This document shows, piece by piece, positions 5,054-42,611 of a stretch of DNA of 64,000 nt. Origin of the DNA: Faecalibacterium hattorii (GTDB lineage Bacteria; Bacillota; Clostridia; Oscillospirales; Ruminococcaceae); the NCBI RefSeq assembly GCF_003287455.1, contig NZ_PRLC01000013.1:1-64000 (forward strand), read 5' to 3'. Positions within the stretch are counted from its first letter, which is position 1. Every line of letters starts with the position of its first letter. Made by a program: the position numbers and the translations under genes. Below the pieces are notes generated by a model, which worked only from the letters and a program-made list of their open reading frames with translations, did no database searches and was not told the origin of the DNA.

Positions 5054-5126
5054 AGGGTGGTTCTCCTTTAGAAAAGTGAAGTGGCGGGTCTCACGGTGAG
5101 ACCTACCACTTCAGGTGAATAAATTA

Positions 5127-5828
5127 TCAGGCGCACTTCGCCAGAGCAAGGCGGTCGGTGCGCTCTTCCAGCATCAGCAGGTACGACCCGGACAGCAGCC
5201 GTGCAGCGGCATCGGCCTTCTGCTGGGGCGTCCCAAATGCAACGCAGTCCGTCAGGTGCTCGACGGTCTCGGTCATGTGGAAGGCTTCCACGAACCGCTC
5301 GTCCAGCGGTTCTTCCGGGCTAGTAGGCTTGTAACACTCTCGCCAGTCGTGCAGCAGGTCGAGATAGTCGGTCAGCACCCGCAGACAGTAGGCGATGTCT
5401 GCCCACTGCTCGTCCGTCAGGCCACGCTTGGGCGGCGGCAGGGCGATGGCATTGGCGGGCGGCTTGTCCGGGTTAAGCCAGAGCTTGTCGGGGCGAGGCC
5501 CCTCCATCTTGCTGACGCAAGACCGCTCTGTCACTTGCAGTCCCCACTGGGGACTGCATTGCTTCGCAAACGCGAAGTCATTTATCAGCTTCTCGGCGGC
5601 TTGCCGGGGGTTCAGGTCGAACAGCTTGGCGGTGAGGTCGATGGCATCTCCATTGGCCCCGCAGCCAAAGCAGTAATAATAGGTGTCGTTCAGCTTCATG
5701 CTGGGGTCGCTGTCAGAATGGAACGGACAGCACACCATGCCATGGCGGTCGGGTCCCATGCCGTACATCTCTCCCACCTGCCGAACGGTGATGGCGGACT
5801 TGACAGTTTGATACAGGCTCAAGGGCAT
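5127..5828 (-). CDS. CHC2 zinc-finger primase-like protein of element 1
   Basis: A 233-residue DNA primase-related protein. The N-terminal 80 residues form a CHC2 zinc finger: MVCCPFHSD followed by YYCFGCGANGD, as in DnaG. No TOPRIM catalytic domain follows, so it is not a complete DnaG; the C-terminal part (from LTDEQWADIAYCLRVLTDYL) is an unassigned helical domain. It is upstream of, and probably co-transcribed with, the P4-type helicase. Residues about 85-115 are encoded by a copy of the multi-hairpin repeat (5484-5574), apparently inserted in frame. Start at 5828 follows AAAGGAGAA. Confidence 0.82.
   Translation of the reverse strand: MPLSLYQTVKSAITVRQVGEMYGMGPDRHGMVCCPFHSDSDPSMKLNDTYYYCFGCGANGDAIDLTAKLFDLNPRQAAEKLINDFAFAKQCSPQWGLQVTERSCVSKMEGPRPDKLWLNPDKPPANAIALPPPKRGLTDEQWADIAYCLRVLTDYLDLLHDWRECYKPTSPEEPLDERFVEAFHMTETVEHLTDCVAFGTPQQKADAAARLLSGSYLLMLEERTDRLALAKCA
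5484..5574 (+). repeat. Multi-hairpin palindromic repeat inside the primase gene (element 1)
   Basis: Contains GGGGCGAGGCCCC, CTTGCTGACGCAAG, GCAGTCCCCACTGGGGACTGC-type and CTTCGCAAACGCGAAG hairpins in a row. It matches the reverse complement of 3442-3532. It keeps the primase reading frame open. Confidence 0.65.
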
Positions 5829-10982: not shown

Positions 10983-10989
10983 GATTTTG

Positions 10990-11023
10990 AACGCTAAATC
11001 GTAAGATTTGGCGTTCTTTCTTT
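10990..11023 (+). terminator. tRNA-type terminator carried by element 2
   Basis: AACGCTAAATC, loop GTAA, GATTTGGCGTT, then CTTTCTTT. Homologous to 88-122. Confidence 0.75.
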
Positions 11024-11138: not shown

Positions 11139-12536
11139 TTAGGCGAACAAGGCTCTCGTCAATTCTCTGCGTTCGTCTGCGTCCATCAGCCGGATGGCTT
11201 CAAGGATCTCCCTACCGGAGATTTTTGTTGCCGCCGGCTTTTCGTTTTGCCGGGGCTGGGATGCTGCCGAGGTCAGGTCTTGGGAGTAGAAGTTTGCTTC
11301 GATCTTCTCGGTCAGCTCCAACCGGGGCTTGTCCTGCGTGTGGGCATAGGTGTCCATCAGGACAGATGCGGTAGCATGGCCTGTGTTGCCCTGCACCGAC
11401 TTGAAGTCACCATCCGACTGCAAGAGCTGGTAGGTGGCACTGGAGTGCCGCAGACCGTGGAACACGATCTGCTCAAACTCTGGATGCTCGGCTCTCCACA
11501 GGCGGTACCATTTTGTCAGCAACTCCGGCGCGATGGGCAGACCATCCGGGAGCCGGAACAGCTGCCCGCAATTGCTGTACTTTTCCGGGGCGTTCTGCTC
11601 GTTCTGTTTGAGCTTTTCAAGCCATGCTTGAAGTTCCTCTTTCAGAGGTTTGGTCATATACAGGACACGGTTGGACTTCTTGGTCTTAGGCTTTTTCAGG
11701 ATGAGAGAGGACTTGCTGCCCTCACGCCTGTCCGGGAAGGTGTGGTAGATCTGATTGGGGTCGAGCTTTTCCAAAGCGTCCTTGTTGGCTCGCTGCATGG
11801 TCTTGCTGACTGAGATGGTGCCACGCCCATCGGCGGCATCGAAATTCAGATCACTCGGCTGCAAGCCGAGAATTTCGCCCTCACGGAGCGAAAGGATCAT
11901 GCTCATGTGCACCGCCAGATGCAGGGCGGGGTTTTCGATGGTCTGCAAGGCTGCCAGCATGGTTTTCTCGTCCCAGATGGTGCGTTCCTCGATATTGACC
12001 TTGGGGGCATCACGGGGCAGGGGAATCTTGTGGATCAAGTCCCATTCCACCGCATAGGAAAAGGCGGTTTTCAGCAGGGTGTGGACTTCGTGAATAGAGG
12101 TGCTGGACAGCAGCCGCTTCTTCTGCTTCTTGGACAGGTCCTGCTTCACACCGTGCACATATTGCCCGCAGGGGGTCTTGGCAAGGGTGGCATAGAACTT
12201 CTCAATGTCGTAGGTGCGCAGCTCCTGTACCTTCCGTTTCCCGATATACGGCACGATAAGGTTCTGCACCATCGCTACGGACTGAGTGTAGGTCTTGGGG
12301 GACCACTTGTGCTTTGTGGACTGGATCGGGATCCACTTGTACAGCATTTCCTCCACCGTCATGGTGTCGGGGACGAGGAATGTGCCGTCCAGCAATTCCT
12401 TTTCGACCGTGATCTTTCGCTCCTGCGCCTCCTTCTTGGTCTTAAAACTTTCCCATCCCTCGCAGGGTTTGCCGGAATGGTCTTTGTACTTGTAACGGAC
12501 GGAGTAGGAATCTCCGCGCTTCATAATAGATGCCAT
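11139..12536 (-). CDS. int: Tyrosine recombinase / integrase of element 2
   Basis: A 465-residue integrase with the same domain order as the element 1 enzyme: N-terminal arm-binding domain (MASIMKRGDSYSVRYKYKDH), core-binding domain, catalytic domain with LREGE, HGLRHSSATYQLL and GHATASVLMDTYAH (terminal His and Tyr). The C-terminal tail is unique. GGGAGG precedes the start. It lies 12 bp downstream of its excisionase-like gene. It targets the same tRNA-Lys site although its sequence and arm sites have diverged. Confidence 0.95.
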   Translation of the reverse strand: MASIMKRGDSYSVRYKYKDHSGKPCEGWESFKTKKEAQERKITVEKELLDGTFLVPDTMTVEEMLYKWIPIQSTKHKWSPKTYTQSVAMVQNLIVPYIGKRKVQELRTYDIEKFYATLAKTPCGQYVHGVKQDLSKKQKKRLLSSTSIHEVHTLLKTAFSYAVEWDLIHKIPLPRDAPKVNIEERTIWDEKTMLAALQTIENPALHLAVHMSMILSLREGEILGLQPSDLNFDAADGRGTISVSKTMQRANKDALEKLDPNQIYHTFPDRREGSKSSLILKKPKTKKSNRVLYMTKPLKEELQAWLEKLKQNEQNAPEKYSNCGQLFRLPDGLPIAPELLTKWYRLWRAEHPEFEQIVFHGLRHSSATYQLLQSDGDFKSVQGNTGHATASVLMDTYAHTQDKPRLELTEKIEANFYSQDLTSAASQPRQNEKPAATKISGREILEAIRLMDADERRELTRALFA

Positions 12537-12548
12537 AGATTACCTCCC

Positions 12549-12863
12549 TCAGACCGCCGCAAACCAGTTGTCGAAGCTCTGCTTGTTTACCCGGATACTG
12601 GTGCCGATGCGCAGCACCCGAAAATCCTTCGTGGTGTTGCACAGGTTGTACGCAGCGCGAGGAGAAATCGCCAAAAGCTGGGCGATTTCCTCCACCCGGT
12701 AAACAAGAGGTTCGTGCTTGGCTGCTTTGGTCTGGTCAGAAGATTCAATGGCAGGGGATTTAGACGCTTTCATTGTAACCGGGTTCGAGTCCTTTTGCAA
12801 GAACTTATTCGTATAATTTTCGGATTTCACAGTTTCGGTCATGTCAGGCCGATTCATATTCAT
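12549..12863 (-). CDS. Excisionase-like small HTH protein of element 2
   Basis: A 104-residue protein with the C-terminal HTH YRVEEIAQLLAISPRAAYNL followed by RVLRIGTSIRVNKQSFDNWF. It shares the segment FLQKDSNP with the xis gene of element 1. The start at 12863 follows GGAGG; the open frame continues upstream without a site. The DNA for FLQKDSNP contains GGGTTCGAGTCC (12781-12792, plus strand), identical to the T arm of tRNA-Lys. Confidence 0.78.
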   Translation of the reverse strand: MNMNRPDMTETVKSENYTNKFLQKDSNPVTMKASKSPAIESSDQTKAAKHEPLVYRVEEIAQLLAISPRAAYNLCNTTKDFRVLRIGTSIRVNKQSFDNWFAAV

Positions 12864-12882
12864 AGGCAGACCTCCAATTCCT

Positions 12883-13055
12883 TGTAACCGAACGCCTGTA
12901 ACCGGGCAGGAAAACTCTCTTTTTCTGCACACAGGCTGTCCGATGCACTTTATACTTTTTCTTATTCTTTTAAGGTTACATGGTTACAGAAAGAGGAAAA
13001 CGCAGCGGTCATGCGGCTTTTGCGCCGTAACTGAGGTGTAACCGAATCTGTAACC
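12883..13055. other. Putative replication origin of element 2 (TGTAACC iterons)
   Basis: TGTAACC stands at 12883, 12897, 13037 and 13049 and its inverse GGTTACA at 12974 and 12982, around an AT-rich stretch (12910-12972). It lies just downstream of the VapE-like helicase gene, parallel to the GTAC cluster of elements 1 and 3. Function is inferred from layout. Confidence 0.5.
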
Positions 13056-13075: not shown

Positions 13076-14425
13076 TCAGAAGGGAAAGCCCAGCTGCTGG
13101 GCTTCCGCATCCGTTATTTCGGAGAAATCTTCAGCCCCGGTTTCGGGGCTGGTTACGCGCTCCCAGCCTTTCTGAACGCCGTACTTCGGGTAACGCTTGG
13201 CGATCTTGTGCGCCTGCCAGCCTTGGATATCGCCGCGCGAAATTCCTGTGTTCATGATCTCGCAGATAGCGCGGGTCTCCCACTCTGCCGGGATGTTGGT
13301 GTTGCCCAGTGCCTCCGCATAGAGCTGCTTGGAACACACCCGGTCACCCGTGTAGTCCTCCAGAAAGGCATAGATCATGCCCGCCTGCGCGTCCTCCTGC
13401 ATGAAGTCCTGTTGATGGGCTTGCAACGTTTCCTGCATGGCAGGGCTGAACGCCAGCTTGTAATTACCGCTGTTGTAAATCGTCATGGCTTCTGCCCAGA
13501 GCTGGTCGATATAGGCGCGAGATTCCTCCTCGTTGTCCAAAATGTGGGTCTCAGCCAGTTCCGCATCCACCGGGACGGGGATGAAGCGGCGGTTGCCTGT
13601 ACGGTCACGGGGCAAAAAATCCTGCCGATTGGTCGTGCCAGCAAAAATACACTGGCGCAGACGGTCGGCAGGATGGGTCTCATAGGGGACTTTATAGGTC
13701 TCCTTCTGTTTACTGAGAAAACTTTTGATCTCCTCGATGCTCTTGGCATTGGCGGTGGCGATCATCTCCGACATTTCAATGATCCAGTGCCCCTGCAGCT
13801 TGCGATATACGTTGTCATCGTCCAACCGCCGCAGGTCGTCCGAGAACCATTCGTCCTTGACCGCCAGCAGCCGGAAGAAGGTGGACTTTCCTGCACCTTG
13901 CCCGCCCACCAGACAGAGCATGGTTTCAAATTTGCATCCCGGCTGGAACACGCGCTTAATGGCTCCCAGCAAGAAAATCTTCATGGCTTCGCAAGTGTAC
14001 TCGTCCTCCGCAGCACCGAGAAAATGATGCAGGACATGGGGAATCCGTTCAGTCCCATCCCATTTCAGACTGTTTAGATAATCCCGGATGGGGTGGTAGC
14101 GATTCTCGTTGGCAACGATGCGGATGGCGGATTCGATCTTCTTCTCGCTGGAAATACCGTATTTCTCCATTCTCCGCAGGATATACTTCATGTCGGTGTC
14201 GTTCAGGGGCTTGCCGGAGCGGGGCCAGCCTACGGTCTTCACAATGTCGATGCGCTCACTCAACAAGTTCAGCCGGATGGCATCGGCAAGCACATGGTCG
14301 TTCTGCAAAATCGTGATACAGTTCTGAATCGTCCGCTGAATTTCGCCATTGGAGTGCTTGGTCAGCATTTCTTTCACATCGGTAACGGTTCGGGGAGCAC
14401 GTTCTTCGTTGACTTCTTTGCTCAA
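13076..14425 (-). CDS. VapE-like replication ATPase of element 2
   Basis: A 449-residue virulence-associated protein E family ATPase (SF3-type helicase). An N-terminal helical domain of about 100 residues is followed by NRYHPIRDYLNSLKWDGTER, a VapE hallmark, Walker A GGQGAGKST (near residue 178) and the acidic HWIIEMSEM stretch. RNRRFIPVPVDAELAETH-like text marks the arginine-finger region (TGNRRFIPV). The start is TTG at 14425 after AGGTGA. It ends beside the TGTAACC cluster. It probably replicates the excised element. No partner primase gene is seen in element 2. Confidence 0.88.
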   Translation of the reverse strand: MSKEVNEERAPRTVTDVKEMLTKHSNGEIQRTIQNCITILQNDHVLADAIRLNLLSERIDIVKTVGWPRSGKPLNDTDMKYILRRMEKYGISSEKKIESAIRIVANENRYHPIRDYLNSLKWDGTERIPHVLHHFLGAAEDEYTCEAMKIFLLGAIKRVFQPGCKFETMLCLVGGQGAGKSTFFRLLAVKDEWFSDDLRRLDDDNVYRKLQGHWIIEMSEMIATANAKSIEEIKSFLSKQKETYKVPYETHPADRLRQCIFAGTTNRQDFLPRDRTGNRRFIPVPVDAELAETHILDNEEESRAYIDQLWAEAMTIYNSGNYKLAFSPAMQETLQAHQQDFMQEDAQAGMIYAFLEDYTGDRVCSKQLYAEALGNTNIPAEWETRAICEIMNTGISRGDIQGWQAHKIAKRYPKYGVQKGWERVTSPETGAEDFSEITDAEAQQLGFPF

Positions 14426-14444: not shown

Positions 14445-15674
14445 TTATTGAAAGCGATTTTCTGACTTTTCCGCAGTTGAAAGTACAGATGGATTCCGCT
14501 GCGCCTGTTCTGCCTGCAAGCGGCTCAGCAGTTGCAGAACAGAATCCCGTGCTTTCTCCTTGACCTGTTCCTTGCCTTTCTGCCGGACTTCCGGTTTCAG
14601 CATCTTCTCTTGCAGACGTGCAGCAGTGGTCTGCATGGTCTTGAGGAACTTGTCCAGCACGCCATCCAAACGGTGAGCGACATACTCTCTCGTGGCCTGC
14701 GGAGCCTTTCTCTCCGGGGACAGCACCCACTTCTTCGTGTCCTCGATCATCCGCATATCCTCTTTCCGGGTCTCGGTGCGCACTACGTCCGTCACGACCT
14801 CCACCGCCTTGTCATAGGCCGCAGCCGAAACTTCATCGATCAGCGTTTCCATGTCGTTGACCCTGAGGGTCAATTCGTCCAGCTTGGTCTGCTGGGCGGT
14901 GAGCTGCTCCTTCTGCTTGGCGAGGATGAAGTCCTGCTTTTCCAGATACTGCCGGTTACCGTACTCCGCTTCTTCCTCCAATTCCAGCCCGTGCCGCTTT
15001 GCAATCTCGAACAGCATCTTCCGGCAGGCGGCATCAAAGGTGATTTTGCGGTTGTTGCGGCGGCTGAGGGGCTTGTCCGGGTCGGGCAGCTCGAAGCCCA
15101 GTGTTTCCAATGCCTTTTCCTGCTGGGGAGCAACCTCGCCGTACTTGTTCTCACAGTCGAACACATGGCGCTCGTGGATGTGGGGCGTGCTTTCATCCAG
15201 ATGCAACGCCCAGTCCAGCACATGAACATGGTCGCCGAATTTAGCCTTGAACTCCTCGATGAACTCGGTGACGATGTTCAGCAGATCCTCCGCCGAAGCG
15301 TGTTCATCTAGCGTTCCCAGTTGGTAAATCGTCTCTTCCGGGCAGGTCTTGCGGCTGGACAGCAGGTCAGGAATGGAGCGGTTGCGTTCCGTGTGCCGGA
15401 TCTTGGCGTTGCGCTCGTTCTGGCTTTCCACAAAGTTGGAATAGCGGCTCTCATAGAATTGCCGTTCCACATCTGAGAAGGTCGCCGCCAGATCATCCGG
15501 GTCGGGTGGAGCAAGAGCCGAGCGGAAACCGTGGAAGCAGTCCCAGTAGATGTTGCCCTTGGCTCGTTCCGAGTCGATGTGTTCACTGTTGGCAAGGTTG
15601 AAACTGCGGTCGTTGTGCTTGGGGTTGTAAGTGCCGTGGGTTCCGGCTCGTCCGTTGTGTCGTGTTAATTTCAG
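14445..15674 (-). CDS. Relaxase / plasmid recombination protein of element 2
   Basis: A relaxase of about 409 residues with the metal-binding motif HLDESTPHIHERHVF (HxDExTPHxH). Upstream the protein shows HNGRAG...NPKHNDRSFN and downstream long coiled coils (LAKQKEQLTAQQTKLDELTL). It resembles MobV-type proteins annotated in Faecalibacterium relatives, but is distinct from the relaxases of elements 1 and 3. The start is uncertain: a CTG at 15674 has GGAGGG eight bases upstream, while the frame stays open to 15800. It is 19 bp upstream of the VapE gene, so co-transcription is likely. Confidence 0.8.
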   Translation of the reverse strand: MKLTRHNGRAGTHGTYNPKHNDRSFNLANSEHIDSERAKGNIYWDCFHGFRSALAPPDPDDLAATFSDVERQFYESRYSNFVESQNERNAKIRHTERNRSIPDLLSSRKTCPEETIYQLGTLDEHASAEDLLNIVTEFIEEFKAKFGDHVHVLDWALHLDESTPHIHERHVFDCENKYGEVAPQQEKALETLGFELPDPDKPLSRRNNRKITFDAACRKMLFEIAKRHGLELEEEAEYGNRQYLEKQDFILAKQKEQLTAQQTKLDELTLRVNDMETLIDEVSAAAYDKAVEVVTDVVRTETRKEDMRMIEDTKKWVLSPERKAPQATREYVAHRLDGVLDKFLKTMQTTAARLQEKMLKPEVRQKGKEQVKEKARDSVLQLLSRLQAEQAQRNPSVLSTAEKSENRFQ

Positions 15675-15822
15675 ATAGACATCCCTCCGTTTCAACAGCT
15701 TGGTGGGGAGAACGCAGCAGCGAAGCTGCTGGATCTGCCGCCTTTTTGCGCCAGATAATACCCAGTAGGATATGACGCACAGCATCATATCACTGGGCAA
15801 GGCGTTCCCCCTTGACTCCCTT

Positions 15823-17116
15823 CAACGGGCCATTTTGGCCCGTTGATTTTGGCAAGCTGGCGGGCAAAGATTTGCGAATCCCTGCCCACAGCTCGTCCGG
15901 CTTTTTCAGTGGGCCATTTTGACCCACTGATTCTGTTACGGGTAGAATCAAGTGCCGGGTGGCGGCACCTGATTTTCAGCCAACCTTGAGTCGTTACAGG
16001 TAGAATCAAGTGCTCATTTTGATCACCTGATTTTTACGGAGTGGGCGCGACGCGTAACAGATAAAACCGAAGTTCTCAAAATGATAACGCCGGTGGCTTC
16101 GTTGCAGATGAAATCAAGTTATCATTTTGACAACCTGATTTTGATACGGCTACAATCAAGTTCCCAAAGTGGGAACTTGATTCGGCAGGAGTTACAAATC
16201 AAGTTACGGAAAGCGTAACCTGATTTCAGATGACAGCCCAAATTCCCACTTTGGGGATTTGGGAGTGAGCGATTAAGAGTTACGGTATTTTGGCACTTCC
16301 CAGAATGGGAAGTGCCACTTTACTAAATAAAAGTATCACCGATAAGGAACTTGACAAACTTTGTCAAGTTCCTAAAAGAGAAGTGTGTGCGGCTGTTTTA
16401 CGATGGCGGTAGTCTTTCTGACGACAGGCATTGCTGCAATATCTGGCATCCGCCCGAATTGGTAAGAACTGCTTCCCGCAGCAAGCGCAGGTATACTTTC
16501 CTCGCTCAACGCGCTTTTTAAGGCTTTTCCGCAGATTCAGCATCTTGTGACCGCAAGTCTGGAAGCTGCAATATTTTCGGTTCCGGGTCTGGGTGTAGAT
16601 GACCTTGCGGCAGTATTCACATTGGATTCTGCGCACACTGGGGTCGCCATCAATGAAATATTCCATTAAGGTGTCCTGATTTTCGCGTTCCCATTGTTCT
16701 GTTGTCATAGGCATTCTCCTTTGGCTGTTACGGATATATGGTGGTTATCAAAATGGTAACCACCACTTTTACACAATAAAGCGTTACGATTGTCTGGTTG
16801 GTGATCAAAATGATCACCAACTAAAATCTGTGCGTTATGGCTGGGTGGTAAGTGGATATTTTGTCCATTTACCACTTCCAAGTGGTGAGTTACGGTTTTC
16901 GTAACCCACCATGGGGTAATCGTGTTACAGTAATCTGGCAAATACCGGAAAGCGACACTTACCAGATTTCACCGTGGCTTGACAAAATGTCAAGTCGAGG
17001 TTAAGCGTAGCACGAACAGAATCAATGTGGACAATTTGTCCACATTGATTTCTCCTACCTCAACGAGTAGATAAACGTCCGTTTCGCCTCATGTGCTCAT
17101 TTTGAACACATGAGGC
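15823..17116. repeat. Array of about 20 non-identical hairpins with GTTAC linkers
   Basis: Perfect or near-perfect inverted repeats follow one another at 15823-15845, 15907-15929, 15946-15974, 16004-16032, 16066-16094, 16111-16141, 16154-16182, 16196-16226, 16237-16263, 16291-16317, 16345-16373, 16739-16765, 16797-16821, 16845-16875, 16884-16910, 16932-16968, 16978-16994, 17020-17050 and 17086-17116. Stems are 7-15 bp and differ between units, with matching changes on both arms. Many stems read AATCAAGT...ACCTGATT and many loops read CATTTTG or CAAAATG. Between units the linker GTTACRG recurs about every 50 bp. A zinc-finger gene (16364-16708) sits in the middle. No known repeat class fits. 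Confidence 0.85.
16364..16708 (-). CDS. Small double zinc-finger protein within the hairpin array
   Basis: A 114-residue protein of unknown family. Two cysteine clusters suggest two zinc-binding knuckles: CEYC...YCSFQTC (near residues 33-55) and CACC...YCSNACRQKDYRHR (near 75-100), separated by a basic stretch (LRKSLKKRVERGK). Such YCSNACRQ fingers occur in small DNA-associated proteins. Start at 16708 is the second ATG after AAAGGAG. Its stop codon lies inside the 13-bp-stem hairpin 16345-16373. Placement inside the array makes a role in binding these hairpins plausible, but that is only inference. Confidence 0.7.
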   Translation of the reverse strand: MTTEQWERENQDTLMEYFIDGDPSVRRIQCEYCRKVIYTQTRNRKYCSFQTCGHKMLNLRKSLKKRVERGKYTCACCGKQFLPIRADARYCSNACRQKDYRHRKTAAHTSLLGT

Positions 17117-17565
17117 TGAGCGCGCCGTTCTCCCTGCATGGCTTTCCTGCCCCCTTCCGGCGGCGTTTTCCGGCTCTCCCTTGCGGGGTCATCGCCGGGT
17201 ATCCCATGCAGACGGTCATACGGTTTTCAAGGTGCGGTGCTGGATTTGGCAATAAAAAATCGCCACACAACAACCTGAACCTGACCATCCCTTCTGGGAT
17301 GGCCTTGGTTCGGGTTTGCTATGTAGCGATAAGAAAGTTAAAAACTTGCTCCGGCTGCTTCGGGAGCTGAGCTGGAACTCTAAGTAAATATGTTATATTA
17401 AATTGTTGGGATAGATTACCACAAAAATTGAGTTGTGTCAACAAAAAGTTTTGAAAACATGCCACTTTCGGCAGCTTGCAAGAAAACACAAGGAAAACTT
17501 TAGCAAAAAGAGAGAGGGCCGGACGATGCCAACCCTCTTGACAAGTTTTTTAAATCAGAAACAGG
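17117..17565. other. Non-coding stretch between hairpin array and kdp
   Basis: No convincing gene. It contains GACGGTCATACGG followed by TTTTCAAGGT (17211-17233), a motif also present at 32819-32841 in element 3. A long two-stage hairpin lies at about 17274-17322 (outer AACCTGAACC with GGTTCGGGTT, inner CCATCCC with GGGATGG). Confidence 0.5.
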
Positions 17566-31846: not shown

Positions 31847-31919
31847 AGGGTGGTTCTCCTTTAGAAAAGTGAAGTGGTGGGTCTCACGGTGAGACCCACC
31901 ACTTCGGGTGAATAAATTA

Positions 31920-32615
31920 TTAGGCGCACTTTGCCAGAGCAAGGCGGTCGGTGCGCTCTTCCAGCATCAGCAGGTACGACCCGGACAGCAGTTGTGCGGC
32001 GGCAGCGGCCTTCTGCTGGGGCGTCCCAAAAGCAACGCAGTCCGTCAGGTGCTCGATGGTCTCGGTCGTGTGGAGGGCTTCCACGAACCGCTCGTCCAGC
32101 GGTTCTTCCGGGCTAGTAGGCTTGTAACACTCTCGCCAGTCGTGCAGCAGGTCGAGATAATCGGTCAGCACCCGCAGGCAGTAGGCGATGTCTGCCCACT
32201 GCTCGTCTGTCAGGCCACGCTTGGGCGGCAGCAGGGCGATGGCATTGGCGGGCGGCTTGTCCGGGTCAAGCCAGAGCTTGTCGGGGCGAGGCCCCTCCAT
32301 CTTGCTGACGCAAGACCGCTCTGTCACTTGCAGTCCCCACTGGGGACTGCATTGCTTCGCAAACGCGAAGTCATTTATCAGCTTCTCGGCGGCTTGCCGG
32401 GGGTTCAGGTCGAACAGCTTGGCGGTGAGGTCGATGGCATCTCCATTGGCTCCACAGCCAAAGCAATAATAATAGGTGTCGTTCAGCTTCATGCTGGGGT
32501 GGTTGTCGGAGTGGAACGGACAGCACACCATGCCATGGCGGTCGGGCTCCATGCCGTACATCTCTCCCACCTGCCGAACGGTGATGGCGGACTTGATCTT
32601 TTGATATAAACTCAA
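31920..32615 (-). CDS. CHC2 zinc-finger primase-like protein of element 3
   Basis: A 231-residue homologue of 5127-5828 with the same CHC2 finger (MVCCPFHSD, YYCFGCGANGD) and no TOPRIM domain. The likely start is TTG at 32615, placed like the Leu codon of the element 1 gene, after AAAGGAGAA. It carries the same multi-hairpin repeat insertion (32277-32367). It probably supplies priming for the adjacent helicase. Confidence 0.82.
   Translation of the reverse strand: MSLYQKIKSAITVRQVGEMYGMEPDRHGMVCCPFHSDNHPSMKLNDTYYYCFGCGANGDAIDLTAKLFDLNPRQAAEKLINDFAFAKQCSPQWGLQVTERSCVSKMEGPRPDKLWLDPDKPPANAIALLPPKRGLTDEQWADIAYCLRVLTDYLDLLHDWRECYKPTSPEEPLDERFVEALHTTETIEHLTDCVAFGTPQQKAAAAAQLLSGSYLLMLEERTDRLALAKCA
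32277..32367 (+). repeat. Multi-hairpin palindromic repeat inside the primase gene (element 3)
   Basis: Nearly identical to 5484-5574, at the homologous place in the gene. Confidence 0.65.
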
Positions 32616-42571: not shown

Positions 42572-42578
42572 GATATTG

Positions 42579-42611
42579 AACGTCAAATCGAAAGATTTGG
42601 CGTTCTTTTTT
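42579..42611 (+). terminator. tRNA-type terminator at the right border
   Basis: AACGTCAAATC, loop GAAA, GATTTGGCGTT, then CTTTTTT. It is nearly identical to the hairpin at 88-122, including flanking bases up to TTATGTAACCCC. Confidence 0.85.

Follow-up and report, generated by a model that had tools for sequence, protein, structure and literature searches.

What a 1.3-kb run of mutually different palindromes does beside a putative transfer origin is the question raised by positions 15822 to 17116 of the window, a 64,000-nucleotide stretch of Faecalibacterium hattorii (contig NZ_PRLC01000013.1). A preliminary description of this DNA had counted about 20 hairpins, with loops reading CATTTTG or CAAAATG and a recurring linker, and had proposed selection on a folded RNA or on single-stranded DNA hairpins. 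The count and the loops held: 16 non-overlapping strong hairpins (stems of 7 to 14 bp, loops of 3 to 11 nt) lie in 15822-17116, looser fits at 16005-16032 and about 16066-16100, placed by eye and from repeat and fold outputs, bring the total near 20, and both loop sequences are present. For loops of at most 7 nt, the array contains 15 hairpins of net at least 7, compared to a mean of 0.6 and a maximum of 4 in 200 dinucleotide shuffles, and 13 of net at least 9, compared to 0.05. When the window was tiled as 47 segments of 1,340 bp, the tile over most of the array held 11 hairpins of net at least 9, and the other 46, one of them overlapping the array's left end, held 0 to 3 each. Folded as single-stranded DNA, 15822-16380 had a z score of −13.7 and 16725-17116 one of −9.0 (100 shuffles per block), and folding as minus-strand RNA was also strong (z = −11.8). 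The palindrome array is real, and a zinc-finger-like open reading frame splits it into two blocks. Homologous arrays occur in two other Faecalibacterium genomes (G310 and G320), whose differences are given with the units below.

15822-17116, no strand assigned: array of 16 strong hairpins (palindromes), divided into two blocks, from the pairing search, shuffles, and DNA folding
15822-15846, no strand assigned: unit TCAACGGGCCA-ttt-TGGCCCGTTGA
15906-15930, no strand assigned: unit TCAGTGGGCCA-ttt-TGACCCACTGA
15946-15974, no strand assigned: unit with a 5-nt loop; inner stem and loop replaced at the same place in G310 and G320
16111-16182, no strand assigned: two units (16111-16141 and 16154-16182), missing as a block with linkers in G310 and G320
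16196-16263, no strand assigned: two units (16196-16226 and 16237-16263)
16291-16373, no strand assigned: two units (16291-16317 and 16345-16373), the second missing in G310 and G320
16364-16714, minus strand: zinc-finger-like open reading frame of 116 amino acids within the array, with weak Pfam and PHROG matches only
16739-16821, no strand assigned: two units (16739-16765 and 16797-16821)
16845-16911, no strand assigned: two units (16845-16875 and 16883-16911)
16978-17050, no strand assigned: two units (16978-16994 and 17020-17050), the second with its loop inverted (att/aat) in G310 and G320
17086-17116, no strand assigned: last unit

Read along the minus strand, the element runs from an array block through the zinc-finger open reading frame, the other array block, a putative oriT, a relaxase-like gene, VapE, and an excisionase-like gene to an integrase, with the array starting about 25 bp from the putative oriT.

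15749-15797, minus strand: putative oriT, in which TACTGGGTATTATCTGGCG follows an inverted repeat, with the upstream-region 10-mer
14445-15800, minus strand: relaxase-like protein with the motif HLDESTPHIH, its true start probably near 15683
13076-14425, minus strand: VapE-like helicase of the same element
11139-12932, minus strand: integrase (11139-12536) and HTH_17 excisionase-like gene (12549-12932)

Recurrent motifs and an inverted repeat suggest the putative oriT. Of the 31 upstream regions examined, 29 contain the 10-mer TACTGGGTAT and 17 contain CCTTGCCCAG, and by eye the two flank an inverted repeat both in the window and in locus L054. The relaxase-like protein had no match in Pfam, PHROGs, or NCBIfam and aligned weakly with MobV relaxases at the HLDESTPHIH motif (E = 0.01, probability 4%), most residues of which are invariant among five aligned homologs; at 84 to 92% it matches ten loci of Faecalibacterium records (L037 to L046). 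On the far side of the array, a leader at 17120-17540 is shared at least partly with elements in G310, G320, and L002 and has a terminator-like hairpin at 17513-17538; up to 17400, the end of the stretch searched, the leader had no Rfam match.

The consensus unit, about 30 bases long, is a centered dyad, approximately GTKNNCA-NNN-TGNNMAC, extended by pairing arms of variable sequence. The loop is 3 nt long in 77 of 95 hairpins from nine arrays, homologous arrays included, and, in a separate tally, 77 of 95 are closed by CA...TG. Base frequencies were taken from 137 unique hairpins found by pairing alone, which yielded 66 distinct 5′ arms with 3-nt loops. Next to the loop these arms have C in 94% and A in 95%, and further out they have G or T in 93% at −5, T in 76% at −6, and G in 62% at −7. 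At matching distances from the center, 25 hairpins with 5-nt loops, drawn from a slightly smaller set and including some other palindromes, have G in 56%, T in 60% (G in 40%), and G or T in 96%; such spacing may reflect descent from one ancestral unit and not selection. Allowing at most one mismatch, the dyad, whose consensus derives partly from the same units in which it was counted, has 8 occurrences within the array's 1,340 bp and 7 in the other 62,660 bp of the window; with two mismatches, the counts are 11 and 118, respectively. Loops on the coding strand read TTT in 25 cases and AAA in 14 (p = 0.11), a possible strand bias.

The proposed linker GTTACRG is enriched, with 7 exact plus-strand copies in the array and 20 in the whole window compared to 7.9 expected. 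Its proposed spacing of about 50 bp, however, appears by eye only when degenerate copies are counted, and two of the seven exact copies (16203 and 16889) fall within hairpin stems rather than between them. The attC sites of integrons also have variable stems recognized by structure and a GTT-type motif nearby, their R′/R″ boxes being RYYYAAC/GTTRRRY, and go with an IntI. The analogy drawn in the preliminary description fits poorly at this motif, with GTTACRG differing from GTTRRRY at two positions (compared by eye), and unlike an integron the array showed no cassettes. Iteron and operator clusters are also repeated dyads near an origin with a common core, and their shared half-site at fixed spacing is present here (GTKNNCA-NNN-TGNNMAC); iterons and operators, however, keep sequence and not the complementarity of variable positions. 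Classic iterons were rejected: the GGTTACA repeats at 12774-13055, to which the linker had been tied, have only a short core in common with it. These seven repeats, in mixed orientation around the excisionase-like gene, are perhaps candidate binding sites of its product.

Palindromes of this kind are not confined to one locus. The pattern GTNNNCAWWWTGNNNAC matches 20 places in the own genome compared to 2 for a reversed control, and 18 of the 20 fall in three element clusters: 7 in the array, 8 at C2:97.6-98.6 kb, and 3 at C52:114.9-115.4 kb. At least one match occurs in 30 of 31 genomes of the genus, for a total of 234 compared to 57 for the control (summed by hand). Across 243 genomes of other genera, 1,117 matches compared to 885 are only slightly above the control. 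In seven of these (G222, G239, G154, G113, G238, G083, and G008), the hits were dispersed repeats or scattered, with no cluster among the places listed, which do not include those in G222. Single dispersed palindromes in other genera, such as GTGCTCAAAATGAGCAC in G154 and GTCATCAATTTGATGAC in G239, stand mostly one per contig region and do not form arrays.

Within Faecalibacterium, a different element of the own genome carries an unrelated array ahead of a MobV relaxase. A second array type (array B), unrelated to that of the window and its homologs (array A), lies ahead of MobV-type relaxases in G000, G236, G287, G302, G299, and G297. The relaxase downstream of array B in G000 is named MobV by NCBIfam, and the array-bearing stretch of G297 is nearly identical to that of G000 (1 difference in 823 flank sites). 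Between the hairpins of array B (L184 7560-8560 and homologs), an imperfect palindrome around CTATGTACGTATGTAC...GTACGCACGTACATAG is repeated. Smaller hairpin groups precede zinc-finger or D5-type genes. In the window, D5 and CHC2 genes of the first and third elements have single hairpins immediately ahead of their ribosome sites, for example:

31871-31905, minus strand: single palindrome immediately before the ribosome site of the third element's D5-type gene

A homologous copy lies at 5078-5112 in the first element; the D5 proteins of the two elements are 98% identical and are preceded by similar hairpins. The CHC2 primase genes (5127-5828 and 31923-32615), whose proteins are 95% identical, have wholly different hairpins at the same place. 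In L188 and L186, a distance of 680 to 730 bp separates a hairpin of the array class from a NikA/MobC-like gene. When 30 more loci encoding relatives of the relaxase were examined, 28 of them not labeled or placed as Faecalibacterium, such hairpins were found in L054 only. Of its three hairpins, two share their stem, though not their flanks, with a unit of array B; L053 and L012, within the genus, were without such hairpins. Palindrome arrays are a recurrent class of Faecalibacterium mobilizable elements, found in related and unrelated elements, and not a lone curiosity. A phage origin of the array was rejected: in 81 viral stretches with the single search pattern GTGGTCAWWWTGACCAC (L086 to L166), none had more than 3 hairpins of net at least 9 per 1.3 kb (loops of at most 5 nt). 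Plasmid matches were limited to two records, both from Campylobacter, which match a stretch outside the hairpin block.

Orthologous arrays differ by whole units. In the alignment of array A with its orthologs, units are present or absent as blocks together with their linkers, as in G310 and G320, confirming gain and loss between strains. Internal changes include the replaced inner stem at 15946-15974 and the inverted loop at 17020-17050. The unit before the putative oriT (15906-15930) has an orthologous hairpin with compensatory changes at the same place in 11 of 12 distinct sequences; L042 lacks a hairpin there and was excluded. In these 11 sequences 94.2% of cells pair compared to 87.9% in shuffles, and 7 cells are double changes compared to 2.3 (reached in 0 of 500 shuffles). 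Weaker measures were not unusual (3 double-change pairs compared to 1.7, reached in 76 of 500; further pair types, 75 of 500). For the unit before zinc-finger/D5 genes, represented by 12 of 22 stretches picked by common flanks, 96.4% of cells pair compared to 88.9%, with 14 double-change cells compared to 3.4 and 6 pairs compared to 2.6 (0 of 500 each), and further pair types were again not unusual (105 of 500); kinship of the sequences can exceed shuffles in this way without structure. Covariation, and arrays in related elements, on which the preliminary description had staked its reading, were thus both found within Faecalibacterium.

Covariation has a second possible source. Template switching in replication homogenizes arms and inverts spacers, as described in the available parts of PMC8604942 and PMC8794818, and exact reverse complements account for 20 of 40 loop differences in array B, a tally from 104 pairwise hairpin comparisons that are not independent, and 2 of 8 in array A. 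Covariation and loop inversion alone are therefore no proof of selection on folding, because template switching leaves the same marks. The palindromes might on these grounds be nonfunctional or selfish, multiplying through duplication and recombination while template switching keeps them perfect, an explanation we consider unlikely. The arm homogenization and loop inversion expected of template switching (PMC8604942, PMC8794818) fit it, as do the whole units gained or lost between strains and the homologous elements with few or no units. It would also fit that in L189 a hairpin of the array class (1499-1529) sits inside an open frame without a Pfam match and that in L192 (1519-1551) a related open reading frame changes sequence right at the palindrome, as at a recombination point. 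The L189 frame may be ParB-like. Divergence speaks against this explanation: stem sites differ by 4.3% compared to 16.6% in adjacent 12-bp flanks in array A (33 of 76 ordered hairpin comparisons, the rest being gapped) and by 4.8% compared to 21.1% in array B (41 of 138, with two of six rows left out), about four times less, and template switching alone would be expected to equalize the two rates, so constraint on the palindrome stems is likely. The concentration of the class at intergenic transfer and replication sites, and several array-bearing genomes without the transposase that moves REPs, also argue against it.

The available part of PMC8604942 cites earlier work of its authors in which short inverted repeats were more conserved than their surroundings. 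In the stem and flank comparisons described above, changes that break a pair are more frequent than compensated ones (25 versus 4 in array A, 30 versus 8 in array B); pairing is kept mainly by scarcity of changes, not by many matched ones. Units do each differ with matched arm changes, as had been reported, though the diversity is mainly between units, and orthologous units are more conserved than their flanks in the comparisons that were feasible. Selection on structure, also suggested earlier, keeps as its basis the covariation at two orthologous sites and the conservation of stems over flanks, but the covariation loses its force as proof by itself.

Mismatches within stems can indicate which strand is read. 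A G·T pair on one strand is an A·C pair on the other, so a function of one strand, whether mRNA or transferred DNA, should favor one kind. On the coding strand there were 39 G·T, 32 A·C, and 21 other mismatches (p = 0.48; 95% limits of the G·T share, 0.43 to 0.67), counts that include homologous units and so are not independent; earlier partial G·T:A·C counts were 26:18 for array A and its relatives and 7:8 for array B. Near parity favors a role in duplex DNA, as dyad or cruciform, and goes against a folded mRNA.

An RNA role, in which hairpins in polycistronic leaders would shield the mRNA or guide its processing, cause transcription attenuation, or regulate how replication and transfer genes are translated, is improbable on these counts, which lack a clear excess of G·U-type over A·C mismatches (39:32). 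The position of hairpins directly ahead of ribosome sites, at D5, CHC2, and zinc-finger genes alike (unit 16739-16765 lies, by eye, slightly 5′ of the site of the zinc-finger open reading frame), together with the strong minus-strand RNA folding, nevertheless keeps it alive. Other evidence goes against it. Loops are frequently inverted (20 of 40 loop differences in array B), whereas loop changes are rare in rRNA hairpins, according to the available text of PMC8794818. No Rfam family fits: over the array region up to 17400, the two matches scored 19.9 bits compared to a gathering score of 40 and 25.2 compared to 100 (E = 0.006 and 0.013), and a known RNA family was rejected. Most hairpins have no T tract after them, and intrinsic terminators were likewise rejected, with 4 terminator-like sites compared to 2.8 expected.

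In rolling-circle and mobilizable plasmids, known sso/ssi sites comprise a single hairpin or a few, near oriT and the relaxase. By analogy, the array could start the complementary strand, its hairpins folding on the transferred or displaced strand and recruiting RNA polymerase or primase, though we doubt that it does. On the strand that encodes the relaxase, the array is 5′ to the putative nick and would therefore be exposed late, where the polarity of the nick is presumed by analogy with MOBV oriT. Very strong single-strand folding of array A (the two z scores given above), good folding of array B, scored without a shuffle control, and the primase/helicase genes encoded by the elements all fit such a role. 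A strand-specific structure, however, should tolerate G·T over A·C mismatches, whose counts do not differ significantly from parity (39:32, p = 0.48). Sixteen units exceed what such origins are known to need, and, unlike sso/ssi sites, units also lie ahead of other genes. Promoter-like matches in the region are near chance (3 compared to 2.6), one of them, on the plus strand, matching at 11 of 12 positions. Priming at ssi/sso sites and lagging-strand synthesis in recipients are described in the available part of PMC5714925. Single-strand promoters of the F leading-region type were rejected, the orientation of the genes being unsuitable and the promoter-like matches near chance.

Ranked above complementary-strand initiation, an RNA role, and absence of function, though still tentative, is the interpretation that the array consists of palindromic duplex-DNA dyad or cruciform sites for replication, transfer, or silencing of the mobilizable element. 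The array would be a cluster of palindromic DNA sites in the replication/transfer region of an integrative mobilizable element, acting in duplex DNA as dyads or extruded cruciforms. A putative dimeric or hairpin-binding protein would bind these sites and, once bound, organize the origin region for replication start, relaxosome formation, or element silencing. Purifying selection, with help from template-switch repair, would preserve the identity of the arms. In favor of duplex-DNA sites are the position of the array near the putative oriT, the class members ahead of replication and transfer genes, the common dyad, the constraint on stems, the restriction to elements, and the enrichment in the genus. 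Against them, no binding protein was found, complementarity at variable positions is not required for a protein to read duplex DNA, many units lie just 5′ of ribosome sites, which also fits an RNA role, and most relaxase relatives outside Faecalibacterium are without units (1 of 28 loci has them).

Two further described repeat systems resemble the array. REP/BIME elements, mobilized by RAYT (TnpA_REP), are short imperfect palindromes of about 20 to 40 bp, often clustered and mostly intergenic (PMC8266576 and PMC3733652, in the parts available). Copies within a REP family have stems of one consensus, are marked by an unpaired GTAG (or CGTC) tag, and are scattered across the genome, whereas here the arms differ between units, no GTAG tag was noticed at the foot of the hairpins, 18 of 20 matches lie in mobile elements, and the commonest 7-mers outside hairpins, CCGTAAC in array A and TATGTAC in array B, are not of the GTAG type. 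The Y1_Tnp domain (PF01797) had no match in the own genome, G310, G320, G287, G302, or G299 (84% complete), all of them array-bearing; it matched in 11 of 31 genomes of the genus, including the array-bearing G297 and G236. REP/RAYT was rejected on the lack of Y1_Tnp in the own and five other array-bearing genomes and on stems that are not shared among copies. TIGR-Tas systems also have variable palindromes arrayed with short conserved motifs, one of them from a gut microbiome (PMC12045711, in the part available), but require a Nop-domain Tas protein, and TIGR-Tas was rejected when none of the 31 genus genomes had a Nop-domain match, compared to 4 of 14 control genomes. Searches of an open-licence library, judged by titles and the starts of abstracts, turned up no description of such arrays.

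F. prausnitzii has considerable numbers of integrative and mobilizable elements and no classical transposons; its relaxase groups reach 8 copies in a genome, and ICE/IMEs are numerous (PMC6295017, in the part available); in the main text of that paper, as far as available, no word begins with “palindrom.” In the literature searched, nothing was found on how Faecalibacterium elements start transfer and replication. A palindrome class that is real, recurrent, and apparently constrained, and that probably acts at the DNA level near the start of transfer and replication, offers a concrete handle on how mobilizable elements start both. It is also a warning case, in that its covariation would pass a routine screen for structured RNA, yet template switching can produce it. 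Because covariation is ambiguous, strand-wise mismatch counts and stem-versus-flank divergence are needed before such a locus is called RNA.

More speculatively, and we regard this as doubtful, Faecalibacterium mobilizable elements with several unrelated types of relaxase might share a DNA-structure code in which center and spacing are read and arms are free to vary provided that they pair. One protein common to them, from the host or the element, would read it at transfer origins and replication genes, and unit number would tune activity. A separate, near-identical palindrome, GAACGYYAAATC-..-GATTTGGCGTTC, occurs in the window at 87-114, 10989-11016, and 42578-42605. Two of them follow closely on integrase genes (246-1631 and 11139-12536) and may be att sites or terminators; similar palindromes occur in L040, L045, and L070.
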